A DNA stretch of 41,855 bases, taken from the NCBI GenBank assembly GCA_019119335.1, contig DWXF01000056.1, positions 1 to 41,855 on the forward strand, read 5' to 3'. Position numbers and translations under genes: made by a program. Positions 31,460 to 40,087 of this stretch are shown here, one piece after another; position 1 is the first letter of the stretch, and every line of letters starts with the position of its first letter. This stretch comes from Candidatus Flavonifractor merdavium. Lineage in GTDB: Bacteria; Bacillota; Clostridia; Oscillospirales; Oscillospiraceae. The notes beneath the pieces are model-generated. The model was not told the DNA's origin and made no database searches. It worked only from the letters and a program-made list of their open reading frames with translations.

Positions 31460-34400
31460 TCAGAAGCCCAGACGGATGCGCTCCTCCCGGATGCGGTCCT
31501 CCAGGATCCGATAAACTCTGTCCGCGGCCCGCTGTATCTCCGCCTCACTGAGGTGGATCTGCTGAGGCTTCTGGGGCCGCTCCTCTTTCCGCTTTTCCCG
31601 GTGTTCCAGCGGAACATTCGGCTTGTAGCTGGGCGCCGACCACTCCATCATTTCCGTGCTTTGCTCCGGCAGCGTGGCAATCTGCTTGGCCACCCCAATC
31701 TCCTGGGCAGCCGGAGCCGCAGTCCAGCTATCCCGCAAAAAACGTCTGGCCCAGTCGGGCAGGCTGCGGACGTAATCCGATTCTTCCGGAAGCTGGGGCG
31801 CTTGGGGCTGGACAGGCGGCAGAACCTGGTTGGCGGCCTGCTGGCCGGGGCTGTAAGTCAGCTCCAGAGGCTGCTGTCCGGCGGTATCGCCAGCCTGCCG
31901 CGTGTTGCTCCGGGCTGGTACCGTCTGCTGCCCTCCCTGCTGGCCCTGCACGCGCGCTCCATAATCCAGCGCCACGTTTGGAACGGCTATGGGTGGGATG
32001 TCCCTTCTGCCGTCAACTTCAAGCGGCAGACTGTTCCTTCCAATCAGGCGCTGCCCGATCCGAATGTCTCCCCGCAGCGCACCGGCATACGGCTGGCCCA
32101 CAGAAGCCCCCTGTCCCACTGTGGGAGGCTCCAGAGTCTCCGCCGTGGGTGAGACCGCGGCGCCCTGCTCTGTCCTGAGGGCCAATTCCTCACCGGACAA
32201 AGTTCCTTGTGTGAGCGTACTTTCTATTGTTCGGTTTGCCGCGGAAGGCAGGGTATGCTCCTCACTCTGTCCTTCCAACCGATGGATCAATCGCCCACCG
32301 GAAAGGGTTTCCACTTTACGCTGATCTCGGCTCCCTTCCTCGCCGGTAGAACTGGCAGCTGCCGTACGAATATCCCGGGCAGTCACCAGTCGGGCCTTCC
32401 CCGTACTTTGTTTTGCCCTGGATATTTGCGCCGTCCTGCTGGTATCTGTCTCTTTTTGATGATTCGTCTCCGAACTGGAAAGGAGTTTCGCTTTACGCTG
32501 ATATAACCGATTCTCTTGCCCGGCGATACTAGCGCTGGCTGTGCTGTGCGTCTCCTTGCCAATATGCGTCTGACTTTGGGTTACCGGCTGCGTCGCTCCG
32601 TCCCTCTGCTCCTCCTGCCGGTGTGTCAGCTCCTCACTGGGGAGAATTTCCCCCAATCGCTCCTCCGGCTGGGTCGCCTGTTCCCCGGACTCCGGAATGA
32701 CAGTTCGGATATCCCGGGCGGTTACTTTCTGGCCCAGCCCTGCATGCGGCTGCGCCGGAACAGGTGGGTTCGTCGCCCCACCATCCTGTTCCTCCTGCCG
32801 GTGCGTCAGTTCTTCACCGGGGAGAACTTCCCCCAATCGCTGCTCCGGACGGGCCGCCTGTTCGCCGGACTCCGGAATGACTGTCCGGATATCCCGGGCG
32901 GTTACCGTCTGGCCCAGCTCTGCATGTGGCTGCGCCGGAACAGGCGGGATAGTGGCCACAGGCGGGGTTATCGCCCCACCGCCCTGTTCCTCCTGCCGGT
33001 GCGTCAGCTCCTCGCCGGGGAGAACTTCCCCCAATCGCTGCTCCGGTTGGGCCGCCTGTTCGCCGGACTCCGGAATGACTGTTCGGATATCCTGGGCGGT
33101 TACCGTCTGGCCCGGCTCTGCATGCGGTTGTACCGGAACAGGCGGGATAGTGGCCACAGGCGGGGTTATCGCCCCACCGCCCTGTTCCTCCTGCCGGTGC
33201 GTCAGCTCCTCGCCGGGGAAAACTTCCCCAAATCGCTGCTCCGGATGGGCCGCCTGTTCGCCGGACTCTGGAATGACTGTTCGGATATCCCGGGCGGTTA
33301 CCGTCTGGCCCGGCTCTACATGCGGTTGTACCGGAACAGGCGGGATCACGGTCGTAGTCGGGGTTGTCGCCCCACTCTCCTGCTCCTCCTGCCGGTGTGT
33401 CTGCTCCTCGCCGGGGAGAACTTCCCCCAATCGCCGCTCCGGTTTGGTCGCCTGCTTGCCGGACTCCGGAATGACAGTTCGAATATACCGGGTAGTTACC
33501 GTCCGGCCCGGCTCTGCATGCGGTTGTACCGGAACAGGCGGGGTCGTGGCCGCAGGCTGGGTCGTCGGCCCGCTGTCCTGCTCCTCCTGCCGGTGTGTCA
33601 GCTCCTCACCAGGGAGATCTACCCCCAATCGCCGCTCCGGCTGGGTCGCCTGCTCGCCGGATTCCGAAATGACAGTCCGAATGTCCCGGGCGGTCACTTT
33701 CTGGTCCGATTCCGCATGCAGCTGCGCCGAATGAGGCTGAGTCATGGCCGCAGGCTGGGTCGTCGTCCCGCTGTCCTGCTCCTCCTGTCGGTGCGTCAGC
33801 TCCTGACCGGGGAAAAAACCGGGCTGATGCTGCTCAGGCTGGCTTCCCTGGACGGCAGAGTCAGGAATGACCGTTCGAATGTCTTTGGCTGTGGTCGTCC
33901 GCTCTTCTTTTCCCGATGGCTGTTCCGTCAGAGGTTTGGCAGGAGCCTGCCTCTGCGTCTCCATCTGCGGAAACACAGTCTCCGCAGTCCGCGCCGCGCG
34001 CTCCACAGCACGGGCTATCTCGCTCTGCTCTGTCAAAGAAGGCGTTTCCAATGTATGTAGGCTGCCGGTGGGGTCCCCGCCCTGACTGGCAGGGTGTTTC
34101 GGCAGATCATGTCCTTGCTTAGGGCCCGTATGTTGAGTTACGGGCATATGCTCTCTCTGCTGTATGCTCTGTGTTTGGGTGGGACGGGCGTCTTTCTGCC
34201 GGAGTTCCCGCTCCAGCTGTTCCGCCGTCCGCATCAATCTTTTGGCGGCCTGAACGCCGCCCTGTTGGGCGATTTCCGCCGCCGGCTCCCCCTCCTCCAA
34301 ATGGGTCAGAGGGGGTACTGTCTGATCTCCCAGTGTGGGATATTTCGGTCTTTGAGCCGGTGTAGCGGCTTGCTCCGCCGACTGCTGCGCGGGAAAGGAT

Positions 34401-34993
34401 TTACCTTCCTCCCGCAGTGTCTGCAACATCTGGGTAAACACCGCGGCCCGCTGGCCCAACTGGCCCGGACGCCCGGTCTCCCCTGTCATGGCTCCGGGCT
34501 GCTGCCGGAACCCATCCCCGGTCCGCTGTCCATCCGGGCGCTGGAATAAAAAAGTCTGATGCAGAGTCTGCAAGATGTTCTGCTGAAAACGCAGGGCTGC
34601 CTGAGCCGTTGCAGCGGGCGCCACAGCGGCAGCTGCCGCCGGAGCGGACCGTGCCGCCTCACGCTGAACCTCCTGCCGCTGCACAATACGCTCCACAATG
34701 CGTTCGGTGGCCCGCAGGTACTCTATATTCGGTCTGTCTTTCCGCAGCGCGTCCAGTACCAGTTTGAGATTGAGCTGAACCACTGTCTGGGCCGACGAAG
34801 CCGGCGAGACGGGCGGTTCTTCCGCCTCCTGAAGCAGCTCCAGAGGCACAAAGGACCAATACCCCTCTTCCTGTCCCGCCCGGGCTATCAGTTCCTCCGC
34901 AAAGGACTGGGCCAGAGCGCCGAAAGGGGATAGCGCCAGTCTCTCCTGAGAGAGCACCCCCATATTGGGTTTTGTCACCGCAATGGAATCCAT
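31460..34993 (-). CDS. Long repeat protein, tape-measure candidate
   Basis: A 1177-residue protein, by far the longest in the cluster. Residues 1-120 contain helical stretches (FGALAQSFAEELIARAG, then IEYLRATERIVERIVQRQ). About 130-360 is Gln/Ala/Arg-rich. About 364-880 carries eight copies of the motif VTARDIRTVI; the central ones recur every 66 residues and are Glu/Gln/Pro-rich. The last 60 residues are again helical and charged (SEAEIQRAADRVYRILEDR). The ATG at 34993 overlaps the stop of the preceding gene (TGATG). No other tape-measure-like protein is seen, and its place after tube and chaperone-like genes and before the hub fits one. The Pro content argues against a simple long helix, so a linker or secreted role is an alternative. 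Confidence 0.8.
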   Translation of the reverse strand: MDSIAVTKPNMGVLSQERLALSPFGALAQSFAEELIARAGQEEGYWSFVPLELLQEAEEPPVSPASSAQTVVQLNLKLVLDALRKDRPNIEYLRATERIVERIVQRQEVQREAARSAPAAAAAVAPAATAQAALRFQQNILQTLHQTFLFQRPDGQRTGDGFRQQPGAMTGETGRPGQLGQRAAVFTQMLQTLREEGKSFPAQQSAEQAATPAQRPKYPTLGDQTVPPLTHLEEGEPAAEIAQQGGVQAAKRLMRTAEQLERELRQKDARPTQTQSIQQREHMPVTQHTGPKQGHDLPKHPASQGGDPTGSLHTLETPSLTEQSEIARAVERAARTAETVFPQMETQRQAPAKPLTEQPSGKEERTTTAKDIRTVIPDSAVQGSQPEQHQPGFFPGQELTHRQEEQDSGTTTQPAAMTQPHSAQLHAESDQKVTARDIRTVISESGEQATQPERRLGVDLPGEELTHRQEEQDSGPTTQPAATTPPVPVQPHAEPGRTVTTRYIRTVIPESGKQATKPERRLGEVLPGEEQTHRQEEQESGATTPTTTVIPPVPVQPHVEPGQTVTARDIRTVIPESGEQAAHPEQRFGEVFPGEELTHRQEEQGGGAITPPVATIPPVPVQPHAEPGQTVTAQDIRTVIPESGEQAAQPEQRLGEVLPGEELTHRQEEQGGGAITPPVATIPPVPAQPHAELGQTVTARDIRTVIPESGEQAARPEQRLGEVLPGEELTHRQEEQDGGATNPPVPAQPHAGLGQKVTARDIRTVIPESGEQATQPEERLGEILPSEELTHRQEEQRDGATQPVTQSQTHIGKETHSTASASIAGQENRLYQRKAKLLSSSETNHQKETDTSRTAQISRAKQSTGKARLVTARDIRTAAASSTGEEGSRDQRKVETLSGGRLIHRLEGQSEEHTLPSAANRTIESTLTQGTLSGEELALRTEQGAAVSPTAETLEPPTVGQGASVGQPYAGALRGDIRIGQRLIGRNSLPLEVDGRRDIPPIAVPNVALDYGARVQGQQGGQQTVPARSNTRQAGDTAGQQPLELTYSPGQQAANQVLPPVQPQAPQLPEESDYVRSLPDWARRFLRDSWTAAPAAQEIGVAKQIATLPEQSTEMMEWSAPSYKPNVPLEHREKRKEERPQKPQQIHLSEAEIQRAADRVYRILEDRIREERIRLGF
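32372..33910 (-). repeat. Tandem 198-bp coding repeats
   Basis: The DNA block reading (A/G)TCCCGGGCG recurs at 32372, 32711, 32891, 33089, 33287, 33485, 33683 and 33881. The last six are spaced by exactly 198 bases; 32711 to 32891 is 180 (a 6-residue deletion) and 32372 to 32711 is 339. All spacings are multiples of 3, so the frame is kept. The middle copies are most alike, the outer ones most diverged, as expected for recent unequal exchange in the centre. Confidence 0.93.
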
Positions 34994-35409
34994 CAGTAGC
35001 ACCCGTTATGCATCAATTCAATCCGAGAAACTGCCACGCTGGCCTGGTTGCTGTTCAGCTGGGGACCCACATATTTGACCAGGTGGGCACCCACAATGCT
35101 CCAGGTCCGCTGGGCGGAGCCAAAACTGTCCTTGAGTATGATGGTGCCTGCCAGCGGAATGGACATACCCTGGTTCACCAGACCCATCAGGATGGAAACG
35201 CTGTCCACATTGGTGATCACGCCACGCTCCAGAATCAGGCGCTGGGGCTTCACATTCTGGAAGTAGTAGCGGGGATAGCTGCTCCCACCCTCCGTATAGA
35301 CCTCGTACTCCACTTCCATGTCCAGGCCGGACACGGCGGAGAAGCCGCCCTGCAGGATGCCTCCCGTGCCAAGCAAATAGACGTCAAAATAAGCGCCGGA
35401 AAGTACCAT
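34993..35409 (-). CDS. Tube-like adaptor protein (gp19-like), third copy
   Basis: A 138-residue beta-rich protein with the tube-fold signature: FDVYLLG then GGFSAVSGLDMEVEYEVYTEGG, LILERGV and a C-terminal strand SRIELMHNG. It resembles the T4 gp19/Afp tube family but is shorter and diverged, as tube-initiator or adaptor copies are. GGAGGAG precedes the ATG. It is coupled by TGATG to the repeat protein gene and probably forms a ring between the tube and the LysM/hub assembly. Confidence 0.8.
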   Translation of the reverse strand: MVLSGAYFDVYLLGTGGILQGGFSAVSGLDMEVEYEVYTEGGSSYPRYYFQNVKPQRLILERGVITNVDSVSILMGLVNQGMSIPLAGTIILKDSFGSAQRTWSIVGAHLVKYVGPQLNSNQASVAVSRIELMHNGCY

Positions 35410-35457: not shown

Positions 35458-36084
35458 TCATTCCTTGCCCTGGTTTGCTTTGGGAATAGGGCTTGGATTG
35501 GGCTTTTGCCTCGGTTTGATCTCTTTCCTCGGCTTGGGGCTGGGCGAGACTTTTTTCCTCGGCGCCTTCTTCGCCGGGATCTCCGGGGAAAAGCTGCTCC
35601 GCTTTAACCCAGTAAAGGCAAAGGTGACGCTCTCCATCAGCACCTCGCTTCGGCTGCCGTCCAGCTCTGATAACTCATAGCCGATGGGCATGGCCTGACT
35701 CAGGGTCCAATCCACTTTGGTGTTCCCGTACTTATCCAGGCCGCATATATGAATGGTGCGCCGGAGATTGTTACCCCTTGGTCCGCTGCTGGCATTGGCG
35801 GAGGCCTCCAGAATCCAGTTCCAGAATTCATAATCCCCCACCACACCTTTGGTAAAGGTAATCGGCGCGTATCCGGTAAACACCGGTGTATACTCCTTCA
35901 CACCCCGGTTGTCATCGCCGGAGCGGAACTGAAGGGTCTCCACCTGCATCCGGATCCCGGAGCAGCGGGCAAATGCGGCCTCGACCTGCTCGCCATCCCC
36001 TATTTTGATCAGAAAGCGGAAGGCCTGCAGCGGCTCCAACGGCTCCAGAGGTACCGTTGTCTCCATTCCTGTCTCATTTGCCAT
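35458..36084 (-). CDS. Tube-like protein with Lys/Pro-rich tail, second copy
   Basis: A 208-residue protein. Residues 20-165 have the tube fold (FRFLIKIGDGEQVEAAFARCSGI, YTPVFTGYAPITFTKGV, DYEFWNWILE, AMPIGYELSELDG, MESVTFAFTGL). The last 40 residues are a low-complexity basic tail of alternating Lys/Arg and Pro. Afp5-type tube variants occupy this place in eCIS clusters. The tail has no counterpart in the main tube protein and could line the lumen, bind cargo or contact DNA or lipid. AGGTGAG lies 5-6 bases before the ATG. Confidence 0.85.
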   Translation of the reverse strand: MANETGMETTVPLEPLEPLQAFRFLIKIGDGEQVEAAFARCSGIRMQVETLQFRSGDDNRGVKEYTPVFTGYAPITFTKGVVGDYEFWNWILEASANASSGPRGNNLRRTIHICGLDKYGNTKVDWTLSQAMPIGYELSELDGSRSEVLMESVTFAFTGLKRSSFSPEIPAKKAPRKKVSPSPKPRKEIKPRQKPNPSPIPKANQGKE

Positions 36085-36102: not shown

Positions 36103-36432
36103 TTACCGAAATTCAAAGGTCTTGTTGTTGTCGCCGCTGAGCTTCTTGTTGATGGCGGACACCTCACGGCACCAGCGCCGCCGCTCCCAGTGATCCAAAG
36201 CCATCAGCGCCTCGTTGGACCAGTGCAGATAATAGGCCAGAAACGCCATCTCCTGATAGAGGCGCTCCTGGGGGTAGAGCGACACCCCCCGGGTGTGCTT
36301 CAGAGACAACGGGCTGCTCGTCTGTCGGGGAAGGTCCCGCCAGGCGGCAACTCCCTCCCGGGACTGCTCCGGGGGCCTGACCCGCCGGATGGGAAGCCCT
36401 TCGTTCTCCGCGGAAGCCCACTCTAGCCCAGC
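36103..36432 (-). CDS. -1 frame extension of the chaperone-like gene (DUF6760-like)
   Basis: This frame is open from 36450 to the stop at 36103 and has no ATG or GTG; the only usual start codon is a TTG at 36309 with no ribosome site. It encodes 109 residues after the shift point; the last 60 (YPQERLYQEMAFLAYYLHW, then HWERRRWCREVSAINKKL) match a short eCIS protein type I remember as DUF6760. The upstream 40 residues also look coding. It is exactly in the -1 frame relative to the preceding gene at the heptamer TTTTTTG. I therefore read it as the second half of a frameshift fusion of about 226 residues; independent initiation at 36309 (68 residues) is the alternative. Confidence 0.72.
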   Translation of the reverse strand, partial: AGLEWASAENEGLPIRRVRPPEQSREGVAAWRDLPRQTSSPLSLKHTRGVSLYPQERLYQEMAFLAYYLHWSNEALMALDHWERRRWCREVSAINKKLSGDNNKTFEFR

Positions 36433-36782
36433 AAAAAATCCAGCGGCACCTCAAACTGCTGGTTGCAGTGGGGGCAGGTCAGCTGGTAGTGGGGCATTTC
36501 CGACATATTGATGCGCTGATACATATCCTGCAGATAAGCCAGGTCCATGGTGAACAACCGCTCAATCACCCGGGTGTCGATCCCGTTCAGCGTACCCAGC
36601 TTGGTAACCACCCGGGAAAGCAGGATGATGGTGAGATAGCCGGAGTTCTGCTGAACCCGGGGATCCCGCAGGGGCAGGATCTCGTCCGCCGCCGTGGCCA
36701 GACGCATGACCCCCCGCTTATGTACCTCCCCATTCTGGTCCACATAGCCCTTGGGCAGTTCAAATTCAAATTCGGTCTGCAT
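36423..36782 (-). CDS. Tail-assembly-chaperone-like protein (T4 baseplate family), zero-frame product
   Basis: A 119-residue protein of the kind annotated as phage tail assembly or T4 base plate protein in eCIS clusters (FEFELPKGYVD, HKRGVMRLATAADEILPL, YLTIILLSRVVTKLG, LAYLQDMYQRIN). A CPHC pair near the end could be half of a metal site. It lies directly after the tube gene and before the long repeat protein, the place of gpG/gpE in phage tails. Its last codons contain the slippery heptamer TTTTTTG (36438-36432), so a fraction of ribosomes is expected to continue into the DUF6760-like frame. Confidence 0.85.
   Translation of the reverse strand: MQTEFEFELPKGYVDQNGEVHKRGVMRLATAADEILPLRDPRVQQNSGYLTIILLSRVVTKLGTLNGIDTRVIERLFTMDLAYLQDMYQRINMSEMPHYQLTCPHCNQQFEVPLDFLLG
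36432..36452 (-). other. Predicted programmed -1 ribosomal frameshift site
   Basis: On the - strand the zero frame reads gat ttt ttg, giving the heptamer T TTT TTG at 36438-36432 in the X XXY YYZ phase. The internal Shine-Dalgarno-like GAGGTG at 36452-36447 lies 8 bases upstream, comparable with the stimulator of the dnaX frameshift. The zero frame stops at 36425-36423; the -1 frame continues for 109 codons. I did not find a convincing downstream hairpin by eye. Confidence 0.7.
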
Positions 36783-36855: not shown

Positions 36856-37335
36856 TCAGATGGTGGAAGCGGCGCCGGCCATGGCGCCGGGGGTGTGCTC
36901 CAGACCCTCGTGGCACAGCTCCAGGGACTGGATGGCCACCTCGCCGCCCATACCGTTCAGGTCGGGCACGGTGTAGCCCACGGGCCAGGCGTTGATCAGC
37001 CGCCAGGAGGGACCGGCGTTGCCGGCGTCGTCAATGAGGGTAATGGTCACGTTATGCCGCACCATGCCGGTGGGCGGGGCATTGTTGGTGGGAGCCACGG
37101 AGTAGAGCCAATCCAGGAAGTCGGTGTCGTCGGACACGCCCCAGCGGAGGGTCACGTTACCGAACTTGGTCAGGCCCGCCAGCTTGCGGGGGGTATTGCG
37201 CAGGTCGTCGCCTTCGCGGTACTCCACGGCGTCGGTGGAGGAACTCATGCCGGAAACCTCCGAGAAGCCCGCCCGGCTGATTCCGTCGATCTCCACCCTA
37301 TATCGAAATACTCTGTATGGATAATTGATGGCCAT
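36856..37335 (-). CDS. Inner tube protein (Afp1/gp19-like)
   Basis: A 159-residue tube subunit (T4 gp19/Afp1 family, Hcp-like fold). Recognisable parts are YRVFRYRVEIDGISRAGFSE, VSGMSSSTDAVEYREGDD, the PRKLAGLTKFGNVTLRWG strand pair, FLDWLYSV and NAWPVGYTVPDLNG, and the final ELCHEGLEH. Hexamers of this protein stack to form the needle. It follows the sheath gene by 43 bases and is followed by a 13-bp hairpin. The best ribosome site is AAAGGA about 12 bases before the ATG, rather weak for a major structural protein. Confidence 0.93.
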   Translation of the reverse strand: MAINYPYRVFRYRVEIDGISRAGFSEVSGMSSSTDAVEYREGDDLRNTPRKLAGLTKFGNVTLRWGVSDDTDFLDWLYSVAPTNNAPPTGMVRHNVTITLIDDAGNAGPSWRLINAWPVGYTVPDLNGMGGEVAIQSLELCHEGLEHTPGAMAGAASTI

Positions 37336-37378: not shown

Positions 37379-39142
37379 TCACTCAGAAGCGGTCTTCTGG
37401 GTGATGCGGAAGATTACAAACTCAGCAGGCTTCACCGGGGCAATGCCGATCTGGCAGATCAGCCGGCCGTTGTCAATGTCGTCCTGGGTCATCGTGGTGG
37501 GGCCGCACTCCACAAAGAAGGCCTCGGAGGGCGTGGAGCCAGCCAGAGCGCCGTCCCGCCAGCAGGTGGACAGGAAGGTCTCGATGGTGCGGGTGACCCG
37601 GTCCCACAGCTCGGTGGAGTTGGGCTCAAAGACCACCCAGCTGGTGTTGGCCTTGATAGACTCCTCCACGTAGATGAACAGTCGGCGGACGTTCAGATAC
37701 TTCCACAGGCCGTTGGAGCTGATGGTGCGGGCGCCCCACACACGGATGCCACGGCCGGTGAAGGAGCGGATCAGGTTGACGCCGATGGGGTTGAGCACAT
37801 CCTGCTCGCCCTCATTGTAGGCGCAGGACAGACCGGTGCAGCCCCGGACAACCTCATTGGCGGGCGCCTTGTGAACGCCCCGCTCCACGTCGGTGCGGGC
37901 ATAGATGCCGGCCATGGCGCCGGAGGGCGGGAAATAGGCCGAACGCTTGGAACCAGCGTCGTACATCTCCAGCCAGGGGTGATACATGGCGGCATAGGTG
38001 GAATCGTACATATCCCGGAAGTTGGCCACATCGTTGGTCTTCTTCAGCTCCATGGGCACGTCCAGAATAGCGAAGCAGCTCTTCTTGCCCTCGCAGAAGC
38101 CCACCAGACCGGCCTGAACCTCGGGCATGGTGACGCCGGGGATGGCCATGATGGAGACGTTGCCGTTCTCCTGGAAGGCCTGCAGGCCGGTGCGTTTACC
38201 GGGGCCGTCGTCCTTGCCCAGGAAAGCGTCGGGGGTAGCAGTACGCACAGAGCCATTGCTGCCGCCCTGAAGGGTGAGCACCAGATCGGCCCCATTGCCG
38301 CCGCACAGGGCAAACGGCACGATGGAGGGCGCCTTGGGGGCGGGAGCGGGAATCTCCTTGCCGTCCTTATCCTTTTCCTTGACAGGCGCGGGGGCAGCCT
38401 TGCTCTCCAGCACCTCCACGGTGATCAGGTCGGACTTGGCGGTTTTGGCCACGATGTCATTCAGAGCGTCGGGCTTGAGAGAGAGGTTCTCAAAGGTCTC
38501 CACATTCTCGCCCAGGCGGACGGTGAGGGTAATCTCACAGGTCTTGATGTACTTGACGGTGCCCACCTTGGCGTCGGCCACATCCAGAGAGCAGGGAGCG
38601 TCCAGGGTGACCACCTTGTCCAGTACGTTTTTCACGGTGGCATAGGCCGTAGTCTTGCCGTCGTAGAGCTCCACCACATCGCCGGCATTGAAGCCGTCGG
38701 CGTTCTTCAGGGTCAGATCGGCCCCGCTTACCGCCAGGACCTGGGTCTTGGCCTTGGAGGCGGGAGAAACCACCACCCGCAGGTCCTCTGCCCAGGCGCC
38801 GGGGTTGGCGGCGGAAATCTTCAGCACACCGGAAACGCAGCTGCCGGTTCTGGCATCGCCGGGCACCGCCCGCATGATGTACGCCCGGGCGCCGCCGTTG
38901 CTGAAGAACTGCTCCACAGCATAGGGCAGGAAACGGTTGCTGCCGTAACCGGCCTCGCTGAGGTAGCCGCCGTACATCCGCTTGTAGTCGGCAAAGCTGG
39001 TGACCAGCTGGGGCTGACCCATAATGGGCCCCCGCTCCGCCAGACCCACAAAGCCAGCGGTGCTGGTGCTGACGCCCTGCATGGGCGTGGCACCGGAATC
39101 ATACTCCTCTACGTAAACGCCCGGGGATAAATACTCTGCCAT
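37379..39142 (-). CDS. Contractile sheath protein
   Basis: A 587-residue phage-tail-type sheath. The N-terminus AEYLSPGVYVEEYDSGATPM with VSTSTAGFVGLAERGP is diagnostic, as are FFSNGGARAYIMRAV and the C-terminal core FAILDVPME, AAMYHPWLEMYD, PPSGAMAGIYARTD, NLIRSFTGRGIRVWGARTIS, WKYLNVRRLFIYVEESI and QIGIAPVKPAEFVIFRI. A variable insertion (about 110-290) holds two small domains and a Lys/Pro-rich loop and probably faces outside. Only one sheath gene is present, whereas Afp/PVC clusters have three. The ATG has no ribosome site directly before it; see the hairpin feature at 39149. Confidence 0.95.
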   Translation of the reverse strand: MAEYLSPGVYVEEYDSGATPMQGVSTSTAGFVGLAERGPIMGQPQLVTSFADYKRMYGGYLSEAGYGSNRFLPYAVEQFFSNGGARAYIMRAVPGDARTGSCVSGVLKISAANPGAWAEDLRVVVSPASKAKTQVLAVSGADLTLKNADGFNAGDVVELYDGKTTAYATVKNVLDKVVTLDAPCSLDVADAKVGTVKYIKTCEITLTVRLGENVETFENLSLKPDALNDIVAKTAKSDLITVEVLESKAAPAPVKEKDKDGKEIPAPAPKAPSIVPFALCGGNGADLVLTLQGGSNGSVRTATPDAFLGKDDGPGKRTGLQAFQENGNVSIMAIPGVTMPEVQAGLVGFCEGKKSCFAILDVPMELKKTNDVANFRDMYDSTYAAMYHPWLEMYDAGSKRSAYFPPSGAMAGIYARTDVERGVHKAPANEVVRGCTGLSCAYNEGEQDVLNPIGVNLIRSFTGRGIRVWGARTISSNGLWKYLNVRRLFIYVEESIKANTSWVVFEPNSTELWDRVTRTIETFLSTCWRDGALAGSTPSEAFFVECGPTTMTQDDIDNGRLICQIGIAPVKPAEFVIFRITQKTASE

Positions 39143-39219: not shown

Positions 39220-39687
39220 TTATAAGGTATCATCCAAAGGCACGGCGGAACTGCGCCTGGATTCCAATGGGAAAAGAGAGCCCTGGGCTCCCGCGGCCAA
39301 CCGCTCCCACCAGTGGGAGAGCACGGCGGCATTATATTCCAGCGCGGCGGCAATGCGCGCCTGCGCCTCAAAGCGTTCGGTCAACCGGGCGCTGGTGCGG
39401 AAGATCAGCCGTCTCTCCTGAAGGAAAAAGCTGCCCTCCACCACCTGGCTGTTGAGTTGGCTGCACAGCTCCAGCGCCTGCTGCGGCTGGGTCACGGGGG
39501 TGGGGTGGACGCCGTAGATCAGCACCCGCTGATCCTGGCAGTTGCAAACCGTCTGCCAGGTGCAGCCCCGGCTGGAAAAACGCAGGCGAAACCGGCTGCC
39601 CTCCCGGAGGAAGTCCACGCCGCTGCGCTGCAGCAGCGTCTCCAGTTCCGTTCCTCCGTCAGGAGGTACGTCAAACTCTTGCGCCAT
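39220..39687 (-). CDS. Leader protein, possibly YbjN/secretion-chaperone-like
   Basis: A 155-residue protein. The alpha/beta order with LELCSQLNSQVVEGSFFLQE followed by RRLIFRTSARL and a long C-terminal helix recalls the YbjN/type III secretion chaperone fold, in which small dimers hold effectors. This is a fold guess, not a family match. I place the start at 39687 because AGGAGG lies 8 bases before that ATG; an earlier in-frame ATG at 39726 has none. The gene sits 77 bases before the sheath and 14 bases after the stop of the preceding leader gene. Confidence 0.65.
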   Translation of the reverse strand: MAQEFDVPPDGGTELETLLQRSGVDFLREGSRFRLRFSSRGCTWQTVCNCQDQRVLIYGVHPTPVTQPQQALELCSQLNSQVVEGSFFLQERRLIFRTSARLTERFEAQARIAAALEYNAAVLSHWWERLAAGAQGSLFPLESRRSSAVPLDDTL

Positions 39688-39700
39688 GGGACCCACCTCC

Positions 39701-40087
39701 TCAGAAGGATAGCGCCGTCGGGTCAAAGGCTCTCCCCGCCGACTCTCCCGTTGTCACATCCTGGGGCGGCCCGGTCAGCGGCGGTTCTGTCTCCGGCACG
39801 GGAAAGGGCTCCGTCTCCGGCGCCGCCTCCGGGAGTACAAAGTGGGCTTCCGCTACGGCTCCCCCCTGGGCCTCCAGCAGAGCCGCCATGTTCTGGTTAC
39901 CCAGCCAACCGGCCAGCTCCTCCAAACGAGCTGGGGGCATATCCAGCAGGGACGCCCCCTCCGCTACGGCCCGGATCACATATCCGGCGCCGCTGAGCCG
40001 TTCCCGCTCAGGAATCCGGCTGGTCTGCCGCTCCGTCTCCCGGGTCTGCTCCGTCTGGCGGGTTTTCTCCTGACTCCGCTGCTCCAT
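39701..40087 (-). CDS. Small leader protein of unknown function
   Basis: A 128-residue protein. The first 30 residues are almost entirely Glu, Arg, Gln and Thr (a charged helix), the middle has a short ordered part (GAGYVIRAVAEGASLLDMPP, then LGNQNMAALLEAQG), and the end is Pro/Glu-rich. It has AAGGAGG 5-6 bases before the ATG and begins 80 bases inside the 3' end of the preceding gene, in another frame. I do not recognise a family. Position before the sheath gene suggests an assembly or cargo role. Confidence 0.7.
   Translation of the reverse strand: MEQRSQEKTRQTEQTRETERQTSRIPERERLSGAGYVIRAVAEGASLLDMPPARLEELAGWLGNQNMAALLEAQGGAVAEAHFVLPEAAPETEPFPVPETEPPLTGPPQDVTTGESAGRAFDPTALSF

Follow-up and report, generated by a model that had tools for sequence, protein, structure and literature searches.

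The window (the whole stretch of DNA that was analysed, 41,855 nucleotides in length) carries on its minus strand a pair of reading frames, one for a homologue of phage tail assembly chaperones (TAC) and one for a domain of family DUF6760 (PF20546), within the gene cluster of a contractile injection system (CIS). The features of the junction and its surroundings are listed below in the order of transcription.

37379–39142, minus strand: sheath protein (Phage_sheath_1, E 1.2e-21)
36856–37335, minus strand: tube protein (Phage_T4_gp19, E 4.1e-39), upstream of the pair
36423–36782, minus strand: zero-frame ORF of 119 aa, tail assembly chaperone homologue (PHROG_508, E 8e-7)
36447–36452, minus strand: GAGGTG, Shine-Dalgarno-like, possible stimulator (from the sequence)
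36432–36438, minus strand: slippery heptamer T TTT TTG in the phase of the TAC frame (from the sequence; identical to the end of P2 gene E)
36423–36425, minus strand: zero-frame stop codon TAG (from the sequence)
36283–36432, minus strand: −1 frame linker of 50 codons, whose protein sequence is conserved in relatives (from comparison with them)
36307–36309, minus strand: TTG, at which a free DUF6760 might start instead; the 42nd linker codon and the first possible start
36283–36285, minus strand: GTG, another codon at which a free DUF6760 might start, with a run of G immediately before it
36106–36282, minus strand: DUF6760 (PF20546) domain in the −1 frame (E 5.8e-18 and 2.5e-17; Pfam match 36118–36282), homologous to the P2 gpE' extension
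36103–36105, minus strand: −1 frame stop codon TAA (from the sequence)
35458–36084, minus strand: second gp19-like protein (E 3.1e-26), downstream of the pair

The order of genes on the minus strand is sheath, tube, the chaperone/DUF6760 pair, two more gp19-like genes, and a gene for a 1,180-residue repeat protein without a Pfam match over the cut-off. The initial annotation had placed the pair between the tube gene and the long repeat protein, and the tube gene indeed lies directly upstream, as in the similar orders of phages P2 and Mu. A CIS_tube-LysM protein, a spike, gp25 and baseplate J proteins are encoded in the same cluster, with an AAA ATPase further on. Sheath, gp19-type tubes, a LysM tube protein, gp25, baseplate J and an AAA ATPase are the set that defines extracellular CIS (eCIS), and this set, together with a spike, is present in one cluster. 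Among the 25 ORFs scanned with Pfam, which are part of the ORFs in the window, no capsid, portal or terminase match was found at E 0.001. Two other genes of the cluster deserve mention. The 1,180-residue protein (31460–35002) has evident internal repeats and occupies the position where a ruler gene might be; long antisense frames overlap it. A small ORF adjoining the sheath gene (39220–39726) weakly matched TY-Chap1 (E 0.005) and YbjN (E 0.006), both below the cut-offs; these are peptide-binding chaperone families of the T3SS type.

Across the junction, the zero frame reads GAT TTT TTG CTG GGC TAG. The heptamer is in exact X XXY YYZ phase (36438–36432), GAGGTG stands 8 bases upstream of it (36452–36447), and no stop interrupts the −1 frame between 36432 and the TAA at 36105–36103, which leaves 109 sense codons after the shift, so that a fused product would have 117 + 109 = 226 residues. 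These points agree with the initial annotation. Its further statement that the −1 frame lacks ATG and GTG was wrong, since the frame contains, besides the TTG at 36309 and the GTG at 36285, an ATG at 36249. The first 41 codons after the heptamer nevertheless contain no ATG, GTG or TTG, and inspection by eye found no convincing Shine-Dalgarno sequence upstream of the later start candidates in the window. In-phase XXXYYYZ heptamers occur 24 times in 5,797 codons of 15 operon ORFs, the present heptamer included, and about 0.03 would be expected by chance in the approximately 8 codon positions compatible with a productive shift, the number of positions being an estimate. Taken as a single locus, the heptamer is suggestive of a shift site beyond chance.

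Homology searches connected both halves of the pair to phage tail proteins. The PHROG_508 profile ('tail assembly chaperone') matched all 34 TAC family members scanned (best E 5.9e-9). It covers residues 5–92 of the TAC in the window, and the C-terminal tail of the protein, which is CPHC-type and zinc-ribbon-like and precedes the shift site, therefore falls outside the profile. The Pfam family Gp41_Mu was matched by 2 of the 34 members (best E 5.4e-4) and weakly by the TAC in the window (E 0.038). An AlphaFold model of the latter (pLDDT 78) resembled phage baseplate proteins in Foldseek at a TM score of about 0.6; the best hit was an unnamed phage protein (E 7.7e-7), and two proteins described as 'baseplate hub assembly, T4-like' were also found (E 4.6e-6 and 7.3e-4). 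The DUF6760 model had a pLDDT of 70. An hhalign comparison of 50 DUF6760 representatives with P2-type gpE' from nine phages gave 93% (E 3.4e-7 for the one comparison), with a score of 33.6 versus at most 17.7 in 200 column-shuffled controls, and the extension was in the identical relative frame in 9/9 phage pieces. Support from single proteins was weaker: hhalign against P2 gpE' alone gave 72%, and the Pfam family gpE was matched by two of three DUF6760 proteins below the cut-off (E 0.014 and 0.07) and not by the third. Judging from the profile comparison, DUF6760 and the extension that frameshifting adds in P2 gpE' are distant homologues. No viral relatives of DUF6760 were found in IMG/VR (31 pattern matches, none confirmed) or INPHARED, and none of one TAC by tblastn. 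The DUF6760 in the window had no PHROG match, PF06528 was absent from 196 genomes of the class to which the window belongs, and searches for sequence relatives of TAC or DUF6760 in the PDB returned nothing convincing.

DUF6760 is widely distributed. PF20546 was present in 22/300 and 32/400 genomes of the family of the window (overlapping draws), 12/291 of its class and 6/249 of its phylum. A scan of named genomes yielded 548 confirmed stretches, and the best 80 of these were used; they came mostly from Bacillota and included Methanoperedens, Methanosarcina, Nitrospirota and Aminicenantes. DUF6760 was also found in 34 plasmid records, and the 18 analysed belong to Actinomycetota, Cyanobacteriota, Pseudomonadota, Bacillota and Haloferax. 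A recognisable chaperone adjoins DUF6760 in 146 of 147 loci. The alignment of homologous loci suggested by the initial annotation bore out its expectation, the −1 relation between DUF6760 and the chaperone being kept in 142/146. The 142 loci formed 50 clusters (80% identity, single linkage), which removes duplication such as that of L037 and L040, two loci among the 142 that have an identical junction and look like one genome.

The exceptions to the −1 relation are L034 and L133, where DUF6760 is in the same frame as the best chaperone piece, and L104 and L147, where it is in the third frame. In L034 (genome G478), the chaperone and a shortened DUF6760 share a frame with one TAG between them, pointing to decay or to readthrough as an alternative to frameshifting. 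The run before the stop differs in L147 and L104, which places DUF6760 in the third frame; in L147 it reads TGG GGG AAT, and a −2 slip on GGGGG, of the kind annotated for Mu, would reach DUF6760. Together with L133, where the TAC is interrupted, and L023 (the second CIS of genome G182), where the chaperone is nearly all gone and its apparent first codons run straight into DUF6760, the same-frame locus L034 gives a few broken-looking cases, which would fit the view that there is no recoding and that the DUF6760 frame is a remnant left by decay or faulty sequencing. The domain, however, is conserved with invariant residues over many assemblies and several phyla, in the same relation to the chaperone at nearly every locus, and we regard a remnant as extremely improbable.

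The sequences at the junction fall into a small number of classes. Among the 142 loci, T TTT TTN, the class of the window, occurs in 67, A AAT TTN in 24 and G GGG GAN in 38; nine loci retain XXXX for the P site only, and four have other sequences. A canonical XXXYYYZ heptamer or GGGGGA was found in phase within some 45 nt of the end of the TAC gene in 49 of the 50 representatives, versus 11.4 expected from synonymous shuffles. Canonical heptamers alone accounted for 28 (7.4 expected) and GGGGGA alone for 26 (4.4 expected); G GGG GAN is not canonical and its class was defined after the data were seen, so that the excess of GGGGGA is partly post hoc. GGGGGAA was the commonest non-canonical string, found in 17 representatives. 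In the portions consulted of a study of SEA-PHAGES frameshift data (PMC10885494), the 'fivetwo' slippery motif occurs in this form alone, with about a thousand cases, and G:U re-pairing is given as the rationale for its slippage.

Codon choice at the site was strongly biased. The phenylalanine codon was TTT in 99 and TTC in 4 of the 103 Phe-type loci, with a background of 396:266; among representatives the ratio was 23:4 versus 132:96 in the background (p 0.006). In the 34 Gly-type loci the codon was always GGG and always preceded by G (background GGG 207/979). Five of the 142 loci fit neither type. The comparative data turn the suggestive case of the single heptamer into a strong one for a predicted shift site. 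Three members of the cluster of the window (L007, L009 and L014) have T TTT CTG/CTC in place of T TTT TTG while both ORFs are intact, and an ATG precedes the domain in all three. The initial annotation had proposed to check whether the heptamer is conserved among relatives; a shift-prone string is present in 49/50 representatives, with constraint on synonymous positions, and these three relatives keep only T TTT. Loss of the heptamer in close relatives with both proteins intact had been named as evidence against a shift; we read the three as variants rather than as a refutation, because slippage in the P site is retained.

The repetitive nature of these sites could also mean that RNA polymerase, and not the ribosome, slips on the T or G run and thereby makes the fused frame. 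The window has six Ts and the G class has runs of five Gs, which would suit such slippage. Runs of five to six are nonetheless short for polymerase slippage, and the class A sites (A AAT TTN, 24/142) have runs of only three to four. In addition, the phase of the site relative to the zero frame is kept, a property for which polymerase slippage has no need. We consider this explanation very unlikely.

If the ribosome enters the −1 frame at the heptamer, the linker between the heptamer and DUF6760 should be translated, and selection on it was analysed in the window and 11 relatives, whose spacing is 44–52 codons. L014 was excluded from these 12-locus tests; its linker is different and shorter, with GTG and ATG. 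The first start in the 12 long-linker loci, if any, is at codon 42 or later, and the linker of L004 contains no start whatever. The −1 frame is open in 12/12 linkers, whereas one other frame has one or two stops in every linker and the third has none or one. The pooled pN/pS was 0.66 over 38 aligned codon columns bounded by the chaperone stop and the first start of the window locus; for six linkers of equal length, the −1 frame had 0.60 and the two other frames 1.20 and 1.16. By parsimony, 57, 52 and 85 changes fell on codon positions 1, 2 and 3 (chi-square p 0.0075), third positions varying most, a pattern that the initial annotation had proposed to look for in homologous loci; the signal came mostly from the first part (11, 11 and 28 in codons 5–17; 46, 41 and 57 in codons 18–40). 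These comparisons argue with moderate strength for selection in the −1 frame, and selection on a stretch without a start suggests that the stretch is translated in that frame.

The principal alternative is that DUF6760 is made as a separate protein by termination-reinitiation (translational coupling) near or after the TAC stop, from AUG or GUG or from a poor codon such as AUA or CUG, the heptamers being incidental. It agrees with the finding that an ATG or GTG overlaps the chaperone stop in 14 of 142 loci, which implies that some lineages can produce the domain on its own. The overlap is GTGA in five loci (Streptomyces and relatives) and ATGA in Rhizobium, Haloferax and others. Several plasmid records also annotate DUF6760 as a gene of its own, some with ATA, ATT or CTG starts; the annotated starts in L120, L125 and L129 are such codons, as a gene caller might choose when a proper start is lacking. 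Furthermore, ATA overlaps the stop in 19/38 G-class loci, and GGGGGA could pass for a weak Shine-Dalgarno sequence. On the other hand, GGGGGA is only 3 or 0 nt from the stop-overlapping codon (offsets −10 and −7), GGG was used in 34/34 cases without being needed by a Shine-Dalgarno sequence, and T TTT TTR has no Shine-Dalgarno value. The start-free 41 codons after the heptamer in the window and the −1-frame selection on the linker also speak against coupling, as does the absence of any ATG, GTG or TTG between site and domain in 93/142 loci. A DUF6760 with a good start and Shine-Dalgarno sequence of its own, which the initial annotation had regarded as contrary to its proposal, is encountered in part, in the 14 loci with an overlapping ATG or GTG. 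Two further loci (L054 and L103), which lack both TTR and a start, speak against the frameshift reading. On balance, coupling as the general explanation appears improbable.

Overlapping starts differ in frequency among the site classes. They were found in 0/67 loci of the T class, 2/24 of the A class, 7/38 of the G class, 4/9 of those with only the P-site part and 1/4 of the others. The four P-site-only loci with ATGA come from two Brevibacillus and two Tumebacillus, and in them TCA, CCG or CAG takes the place of TTN after T TTT. Brevibacillus formosus, which has ATGA, and Paenibacillus, which has T TTT TTG, form a natural contrast. The difference between the intact T TTT TTN site (0/67) and the weakened site (4/9) gave p 1e-4 in Fisher's test, although the loci are related. 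On a tree of 132 of the 142 loci (duplicates removed), the direction of the anti-correlation between site and start agreed in nearly every pairing, and it was not significant because the independent pairs were too few (3 or 2 on supported branches).

No unusual RNA structure was found 3' of the site in the window: the fold of 36431–36330, the region proposed by the initial annotation, was not better than those of shuffles (z +1.2). Certain tailed phages reportedly shift without an RNA stimulator, according to the portions consulted of PMC5009743. Shine-Dalgarno-like tetramers upstream of the site were weakly enriched (14 of 22 T/A-class representatives versus 9.3 expected).

The reading of the pair as a phage-like chaperone frameshift, proposed by the initial annotation, is supported by the PHROG_508 match, the homology to gpE', the heptamer and gene order shared with P2, the −1 relation across loci and the synonymous-site constraint. 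We conclude that a conserved programmed −1 frameshift very probably yields a short (119 aa) and a fused chaperone of about 226 residues in CIS. The TAC/DUF6760 pair would then be one recoded CIS gene. The majority of ribosomes would stop at the TAG and release the short TAC, and a minority would move back by one base at T TTT TTG, so that translation in the −1 frame would yield the fused form with DUF6760 at its end. If the two products work like those of lambda G/GT and P2 E/E', the short one would cover a ruler or scaffold, and the additional tail of the fused one would bring in tube subunits. This division of roles follows the account of lambda in portions of PMC5009743. The analysis shows the layout of the sequence and its conservation, the relationship of the two halves to phage chaperones and to gpE', and the absence of standard starts beyond the site in most relatives; the occurrence and efficiency of slippage, the partner proteins and the function in assembly are inferred.

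How far this can be generalised is a more evenly balanced question. There is about an even chance that a P2-like −1 frameshift is a general and ancient part of a large CIS branch in bacteria and archaea, exchanged in several lineages for separate proteins coupled through ATGA or GTGA; the ratio of short to fused chaperone would thus be a controlled parameter of the assembly of injection machines, possibly of their length. Frameshifting in phage chaperones is already known, and what is new is its predicted presence in cellular injection machines, together with the zinc-ribbon-like chaperone tail and the lineages with overlapping start codons. No earlier report of a CIS chaperone frameshift was found in the portions of open-access literature covered, a scope outside which bioRxiv and most subscription journals lie, and DUF6760 was not found mentioned by name in the open-access literature. 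The eCIS papers, in the portions returned by term searches, contained no passage on 'frameshift' or a tail assembly chaperone. CIS are phage-derived yet cellular. If the proposal is true, DUF6760 can be overlooked or wrongly placed by gene finders that insist on a start codon, and an assembly factor may be lost from CIS expression constructs in which the junction is altered. How CIS length is controlled and how the tube is initiated could then be tested with the known phage model, and these CIS would be tied to P2-like tails by the type of recoding site that they share and by the homology of the extension.

The window resembles Afp, PVC and AlgoCIS in having the sheath, gp19-type tubes, LysM tube protein, gp25, baseplate J and AAA ATPase. 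It differs from AlgoCIS, for which a small Alg6/Afp6 plug is described in the portions of the source consulted; we take the Alg6 family to be distinct from DUF6760. In organisation the pair is like the E/E' genes in the FETUD operon of phage P2, which share the order sheath, tube, chaperone and −1 extension, the heptamer T TTT TTG and an extension homologous to DUF6760. In the P2 record a −1 shift is annotated, and the genes follow one another as sheath, tube, E, E', T. The last codons of gene E are GGT TTT TTG and six more, and phage 186 has identical codons. P2 is unlike the window in that it builds a virus tail, whereas the window encodes a CIS and has, in addition, two more gp19 genes and genes for a CIS_tube-LysM protein and an AAA ATPase. 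The likeness to P2 rests on the extension, the site and the gene order, the TAC half having matched PHROG_508 and, weakly, Mu gp41. Phage Mu, with gp41 and its frameshift product Mu_56, is similar through this weak TAC homology, and its gp41 gene lies between tube and tape measure; it differs in using a −2 shift, given as verified in the record, and in an extension that by eye has no HW motif. The lambda G/GT pair is comparable by description, a low-level −1 shift giving short and fused chaperones in a set ratio (portions of PMC5009743). The T4-like tail chaperones are similar in that the TAC model resembles 'baseplate hub assembly, T4-like' proteins. They are unlike the pair in the window in that, going by the title of Vladimirov 2022, they reportedly use a mechanism other than frameshifting, and by analogy the minority of loci with ATGA or GTGA may employ such a non-frameshift mechanism as well.
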